Origin: an uncultured Clostridia bacterium
GTDB taxonomy: Bacteria > Bacillota > Clostridia > Christensenellales > Borkfalkiaceae
Length of the DNA stretch: 64,000 bases
Direction: 5' to 3'
NCBI GenBank assembly: GCA_947627015.1
Contig: CANQUL010000002.1
Location: forward strand, 1 to 64,000
In this document: piece by piece, positions 42,972-43,925 of the stretch
How the letters are laid out: each line of letters opens with the position of its first letter
Position numbering within the stretch: position 1 is the stretch's first letter
The notes under the pieces: model-generated
The model's database searches: none
The model's input: only the letters and a program-made list of their open reading frames with translations
What the model was told of the DNA's origin: nothing
Position numbers and translations under genes: made by a program

Positions 42972-43000
42972 TTATAGCAGATAACCGCGCTCCCGTCAAG
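42972..43000 (-). promoter_or_regulatory. Promoter TTGACG-N17-TATAAT upstream of ylxM
   Basis: Minus strand: TTGACG (complement of 42995-43000), TATAAT (complement of 42972-42977). Confidence 0.75.
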
Positions 43001-43175
43001 CGATTTTCCTTGACAGGGAGAAATTTTTTTACGGAGTTCGGGAAGAGGTGCCCGAAAGGAATAAAAAATCCGCCAAGCGGTCTGCTGGGCGGAGAAGTAA
43101 AGGTCGAACAGTTGTACGTCGTTCAAGTCCTTCATTCCACGCCCCTTTATCGCCATTACAGCAGAGAAAAAATCG

Positions 43176-43200
43176 CCCGTCAAGCATTTTACTTGACGGG
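43176..43200 (-). terminator. Terminator of the CFI-box-like gene
   Basis: Minus strand CCCGTCAAG-TAAAATG-CTTGACGGG then CGATTTTTT. Confidence 0.65.
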
Positions 43201-43236: not shown

Positions 43237-43707
43237 TCAGAGAAGTTTTTCTTTCAATGTGAGCGTCATGTCGCGGTAGCGGGCAAGTGCGCCGTCGCTG
43301 TCCCCGTTCTCGATGCACGCCACGCACTCCGTGACTACGCCGTAGATGTACTCGTAGTATTCCTTCTGCTTGCCCGAAGCCTCGATCTTCTCCACGATCT
43401 TGGGTGCTACCTTATAGTACTCCTCGACGAGGGCGCTCCCCTCCGCCGTCTTTTTGAGATGATTGTCGCGGAATGCCCGCAACGTCGTGAGTTCGTAGCA
43501 ATCGTCGGGCTTGCCGAAATACCCCACACACGCGGACGTCAGGTAGCAGGAGGACGAGGAACGCTCCTCGTACCCTTTACAATACCAACGCCATTCTCCT
43601 CTAAGATGGTAGTCGCCGTCATAGTTGCAATAGTAATCGTCGTATGTAACATGATCGCCGGGTATATTCGTAAGATGAACACATTTCCCACATTTTACCC
43701 CATCCAT
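43237..43707 (-). CDS. CFI-box-CTERM-like protein with N-terminal Cys-rich region
   Basis: GVKCGKCVHL...CNYDGDYHLRGEWRWYCKGYEE, then CYLTSACVGYFGKPDDCYELTTLRAFRDNHLKKTAEGSALVEEYYKVAPKIVEKI, resembling the CFI-box pattern. Confidence 0.65.
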   Translation of the reverse strand: MDGVKCGKCVHLTNIPGDHVTYDDYYCNYDGDYHLRGEWRWYCKGYEERSSSSCYLTSACVGYFGKPDDCYELTTLRAFRDNHLKKTAEGSALVEEYYKVAPKIVEKIEASGKQKEYYEYIYGVVTECVACIENGDSDGALARYRDMTLTLKEKLL

Positions 43708-43741
43708 AATTTTTTCCTCCGTAGATAAATTTGTTAAATCA

Positions 43742-43773
43742 ATTATAACACTTCCTACCCCCCCCCTTGTCAA
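43742..43773 (-). promoter_or_regulatory. Promoter TTGACA-N20-TATAAT with G9 tract in the spacer
   Basis: Minus strand TTGACA AGGGGGGGGGTAGGAAGTGT TATAAT; C9 on plus strand at 43758-43766. Confidence 0.75.
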
Positions 43774-43925
43774 ATGTTTGAAGGGGGATCGGGAAAAAAT
43801 TTTTGCGCTTTTTCGACAAAGTTGCGGGGAATACAAAGGGCGGCACAAGCCGTAGGCGCAATACGGGGGGTGCGGCGGTCCCTGCCGCCACGACCGGGGA
43901 CACAGGGGCAGGGGGAAATGCAAAC

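Follow-up and report, generated by a model that had tools for sequence, protein, structure and literature searches.

Introduction

Most known cases of phase variation through a poly-G tract in a promoter spacer concern a small number of pathogen genes. Other homopolymers occupy the promoter spacers of opc in Neisseria (poly-C) and of vlp in Mycoplasma hyorhinis (poly-A), where surface lipoproteins or adhesins are expressed in a graded or ON/OFF manner. In porA of Neisseria meningitidis, 11 G give high expression, 10 G a 2-fold lower level and 9 G a level about 13-fold lower (PMC3639595). In the gut commensal Bifidobacterium breve UCC2003, the pilus switches rely on G10-G11 slippage at around 10% in vivo, and the same paper notes G tracts within promoter spacers as well (PMC9187656).

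The stretch of DNA analysed here, hereafter the window, covers 64,000 nucleotides of an uncultured Clostridia bacterium (Borkfalkiaceae) and belongs to contig C2 of a 1.43-Mb MAG of 89 contigs, 88% complete. It contains a promoter with nine consecutive G in the spacer, which proves to be one of a class. As in opc and vlp, a homopolymer lies within the promoter spacer, but the base is another one, the lineages are unrelated, and in some members of the class (genome G061) the spacer consists entirely of poly-G. The likeness to porA is closer: a coding-strand poly-G of 9-11 in a sigma-70 spacer, surface-protein genes downstream (for the class) and a spacing that moves with changes of 1-3 G. However, only one or a few genes per Neisseria genome are so equipped, whereas here several promoters per genome, known from sequence alone, recur across a whole genus. 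B. breve is likewise a gut commensal with G tracts, some of them in promoter spacers, although the tracts characterised there lie in coding sequence and act by frameshift (PMC9187656). The principle is already known; searches of an incomplete set of open-licence papers gave no report of such promoters recurring throughout a lineage of uncultured gut Clostridia.

Results

The promoter and its orthologues

The elements of the locus are as follows.

43237..43707, minus strand: controlled gene, encoding a 156-aa Cys-rich protein with a CFI-box C-terminal domain (ATG at 43707; profile match NF041770)
43716..43720, minus strand: ribosome-binding site GGAGG (window sequence)
43742..43747, minus strand: -10 hexamer TATAAT (window sequence; conserved in the orthologues)
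43748..43757, minus strand: remaining spacer TAGGAAGTGT, with an extended -10 (TGT) adjoining TATAAT (window sequence)
43758..43766, minus strand: G9 homopolymer tract in the promoter spacer (window sequence; orthologues without tract)
43767, minus strand: A between the -35 and the tract (window sequence)
43768..43773, minus strand: -35 hexamer TTGACA (window sequence; conserved in orthologues L071 and L072)
43762..43787, no strand assigned: inverted repeat CCCCCTT-N12-AAGGGGG spanning the -35, with one arm overlapping the G tract (sequence)

Read directly, the minus strand from 43773 to 43742 is TTGACA-A-GGGGGGGGG-TAGGAAGTGT-TATAAT, exactly the two consensus hexamers and the 20-bp spacer with G9 that the sequence-only reading had described. 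Four exact TTGACA-N15-21-TATAAT promoters occur in the window against 0.00 expected from 100 shuffles, and the remaining three have 17-bp spacers. Runs of G8 are not in excess in the window (2 overlapping matches, both of them the locus tract, against 3.16 expected from shuffles), which rules out a general G-run excess.

In both orthologues the -35, the -10 and the flanks are kept, so that the promoter proposed from the window is real by homology. L071 reads TTGACA-AGGGGAGCGGGGTATGT-TATAAT and L072 reads TTGACA-AGGGGAGTGGAGTATGT-TATAAT, each with a spacer of precisely 17 bp that has no long G run; at the position of the tract they have AGGGGAGCGGGG and AGGGGAGTGGAG, which are G-rich but tract-free. 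The earlier suggestion that a loss of three G would restore the optimal 17 bp agrees with these alleles, relative to which the window allele is +3. Since both orthologues have exactly 17 bp, the ancestral spacing was probably 17, with the window allele having gained three positions and a pure G9, and since they are without a tract, the G9 at this locus is young. This comparison covers one window allele and two orthologues, with one genome per species; both known orthologues being tract-free, tract-length differences between close relatives come from other members of the class.

The downstream gene

The gene, previously termed CFI-box-like, matches the CFI-box C-terminal domain profile NF041770 with 60.8 bits against a curated cut-off of 40. 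It thus shares with the CFI-box-CTERM domain proteins (NCBIfam NF041770) a score above the cut-off, but its product is a short protein whose N-terminus, with four Cys, is divergent. Across the window protein and its orthologues in L071 and L072, the C-terminal half is 73-86% identical and the short Cys-containing N-terminal part is very divergent. A Pfam search of the 156-aa protein gave no match, and a signal-like N-terminus was sought in it, with none apparent; the gene is an atypical member of the class, its product being apparently not secreted and not evidently a surface protein. It sits between ftsY and ylxM-ffh, all on the same strand.

After the CFI-box gene, the inverted repeats CCCGTCAAG-N-CTTGACNGG at 42992-43017 and 43176-43200 (0 expected by chance) flank the ylxM promoter region, and similar copies adjoin ylxM in G060 (L003); they may act as terminators or as an operator. 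Neither the Rfam nor the tRNA scan gave a match in the window.

Distribution of tract promoters

Genome-wide, 80 exact TTGACA/TATAAT promoters have spacers of 15-22 bp, and 4 of the genome's G8+ tracts (about 20) fall within these spacers, whose share of all strand positions is 0.05% (P about 2e-10). It is therefore the position of the tracts, not the frequency of G runs, that is non-random. Two further G8+ tracts precede TATCAT after TTGACA, and there is one G7 on C88; counting TATNAT, the genome has 7 promoters with G7-G9 between TTGACA and TATAAT or TATCAT. Besides the one in the window, they are located at C8:19747, C11:13986, C27:3752 and C28:10467 and on C74 and C88. An eighth tract, a G8 on C10, is framed by a looser TTGAAC/TAAAAT pair.

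The pattern TTGACA-N0-13-G7-N0-14-TATNAT, by which the class was defined, matches in 82 of the 103 genomes that represent the genus. As a control the pattern was reversed, and it then had 0 matches in those 103 genomes, which rules out chance as the source of the class, and a C-tract symmetry is likewise ruled out by the C7 version, with only 15 matches in 12 genomes. At order level the pattern is present in 82 of 396 genomes, which by hand count cluster in the own genus (12 of 14 sampled) and in families f19 (18/33) and f32 (19/32), with no matches in families f6, f16 and f31 of the order-wide sample. A sample taken across the phylum yielded matches in 11 of 299 other genomes. The order and phylum counts together indicate a design that is lineage-specific and common within that lineage. 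A phage origin seems unlikely, as no more than 8 of 2.9 million viral contigs carry the G8 form. Mismatch-repair loss was rejected as a cause: MutS is found in 41/41 genomes tested, hence no mutator background is implied. With MutS in all of these genomes and G9 a moderate length, slippage rates may be low.

Variation of spacer and tract length

The first listing and the hold-out listing together comprise 235 distinct tract promoters. Their spacers, mainly 13-21 bp, have a standard deviation of 2.1, with 43% at 16-18 bp, compared with 0.8 and 97% for the tract-free promoters of the own genome (n=74, no G6+ run); a 17-bp spacer is found in 23/235 (10%) of the former and 53/74 (72%) of the latter. 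The commonest tract length in the class is G9. Scatter of this kind would be expected of a spacer whose length is unstable. The apparent bimodality of the spacers, with a trough at 17 bp, had P 0.004 in the first half and P 0.27 in the hold-out half, hence it is not claimed.

Tract length also differs between homologous promoters whose flanks match. G022 and G024, whose promoter surroundings are 98.7% identical, have G8 and G9 with spacers of 16 and 17 bp; two paralogous copies in G042 with identical near flanks have G10 and G9 (17 and 16 bp); paralogues differ as 8/9 in G051 and 10/9 in G086; and G009 and G028, with matching flanks, have G10 and G7 (17 and 13 bp). A lipoprotein promoter common to three species (L085, L145, L146) has spacers of 16, 14 and 15 bp. 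Tract length is unequal in 9/15 homologous pairs with matching flanks, a proportion that is no unbiased rate because several pairs were chosen for their differing strings. The uniformity of G060, in which 18/19 near-identical tract promoters have G8, is a caution against high slippage rates everywhere. The gene examined behind one of these roughly 19 promoters (L115; others L161, L162) encodes a lipoprotein, and a promoter-plus-lipoprotein family seems to have been amplified within this one species.

Very long tracts occur in G061. One copy is intact, with the sequence TTGACA-G23-TACAAT, in which poly-G makes up the whole spacer. Another six contigs break off inside G17-G26 runs that directly follow CTCTTGACA, or a few nucleotides past them. 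Together (L171-L177, contig ends and C15:9575) they correspond to a multi-copy promoter in which CTCTTGACA is followed by an all-poly-G spacer. Given that G runs are prone to sequencing error (PMC9187656), the exact lengths of these long runs are uncertain.

Products of tract-driven genes

With one tract promoter taken per genome and a crude hydrophobicity rule instead of SignalP, signal-like N-termini were found downstream of 42/59 tract promoters, compared with 6/26 tract-free promoters from a single control genome, the own one (Fisher P 5e-5); many of the 42 have a lipobox. By this heuristic the class is predominantly secreted-like, a trait that the CFI-box protein does not share. Among the products in the own genome are a lipoprotein, a BspA-type LRR lipoprotein and two secreted proteins, each about 1000 aa long or longer; the looser C10 promoter stands before the gene of a secreted GH3 enzyme. 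ABC-transporter ATPase genes stand behind poly-G promoters in several relatives (L090, L094, L095, L100, L108) and form a second product class besides the lipoproteins.

Discussion

The promoter at 43742-43773, in common with its class, has a homopolymer between a recognisable -35 and -10, and its spacer is near but variably off the 17-bp optimum, at 20 bp against 17 in both orthologues and 13-21 in the class. We consider it likely that it is a porA-type, slippage-tuned sigma-70 promoter, belonging to a lineage-wide class that serves mainly secreted proteins and lipoproteins. This reading brings together the observed architecture, its non-randomness, the recurrence in the lineage, the scatter of the spacers, the length differences between homologues and the enrichment in secreted products. 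We propose that the sigma-70 promoter spacer holds a slippage-prone poly-G tract, in which replication slippage would gain or lose G and thereby move the -35 nearer to the 17-bp optimum or further from it, setting the level of transcription. Slippage would be the cause of the length changes, these would be reversible, and transcription would follow them: the assembled allele (G9, 20 bp) is expected to be weak or OFF, and a loss of about three G would turn it up. The extended -10 is a counter-point, as it could hold the promoter partly active at any spacing.

With several such promoters per genome, across the genus and some related families and mainly for secreted proteins and lipoproteins, each lineage would thereby show a changing subset of its surface. 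The recurrence in hundreds of promoters, mostly before surface-protein genes, suggests a slippage-driven on/off system. With somewhat more reserve, we lean towards a dispersed, genome-wide and stochastic surface switchboard, in which a number of promoters in each genome (as many as about 19 matches in one), mostly of lipoproteins and secreted proteins, would each be flipped independently by slippage of the spacer poly-G, the all-poly-G spacer being the extreme form and assemblies breaking at the switches or averaging over them.

At the locus itself, the evidence could also be read as a static, drifting promoter, in which the tract is a chance expansion of a G-rich spacer that merely weakens the promoter, with no selected or regulated switching. 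The G-rich, tract-free 17-bp spacers of the orthologues fit such drift, as do the accessory nature of the CFI-box gene, present in 8/103 genomes of the genus, and a locus at which a G9 allele and two tract-free orthologues show no length variation. Nevertheless, chance cannot account for matches in 82/103 genomes when the reversed pattern gives 0, and drift leaves unexplained the near absence from most of the phylum, the bias to secreted genes, and G8+ runs which are not above shuffles in the window yet are concentrated in promoter spacers. We therefore regard a static promoter as unlikely.

Rather less probable is regulation by a protein instead of slippage, the G run being an operator or hairpin arm (CCCCCTT-N12-AAGGGGG) or part of a long spacer activated in the MerR manner. 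The inverted repeat at the locus is what suggests it, all the more as the repeat over the -35 in L071 is longer, with 13-bp arms (92%) and an identical N12 gap. A C4 run within 60 nt upstream is however present in only 9/60 tract promoters, similar to 5/26 tract-free ones; the repeat is thus not shared by the class and is ruled out as a class-wide cause, which leaves the operator only as a local rival. A homopolymer would moreover make a poor half-site for an operator, and the class has no fixed spacer length. MerR-type promoters have a conserved 19-20 bp spacer with a palindromic operator inside, whereas the orthologues have 17 bp and the repeat spans the -35.

It seems least probable that DNA geometry, or a non-standard initiation factor tolerating 15-20 bp, maintains a fixed structural class with G kept for shape and not for instability: coding-strand G strongly favoured over C, the mode at G9 and the 18/19 G8 copies of G060 would suit it, but near-identical homologues differ in tract and spacer length, runs reach G18-G26, and tract-free promoters of the same genome keep the ordinary 17-bp spacing.

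The sequence-only reading concerned a single case, and the genus-wide class is the larger finding. If the slippage-tuned reading holds, spacer poly-G appears here as a standing regulatory layer in many uncultured gut species, aimed at surface proteins. The MAG consensus conceals such switch states, and tract length in metagenomic reads would offer a culture-free handle on the states of surface expression in the gut. Whether commensal Firmicutes have contingency loci in the style of pathogens is a question directly testable with existing reads.

Two minor observations concern other contigs of the own genome. On C74 and C88 (L075, L076) the contig end adjoins a promoter cassette; the two cassettes are 96% identical over 113 nt and have G8 and G7, respectively. 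The assembly has probably collapsed a duplicated gene family here. On C20, a G9 run at G000:C20:19394-19402 (L022) seems to lie inside a response-regulator-like reading frame and is a possible coding-sequence contingency tract.
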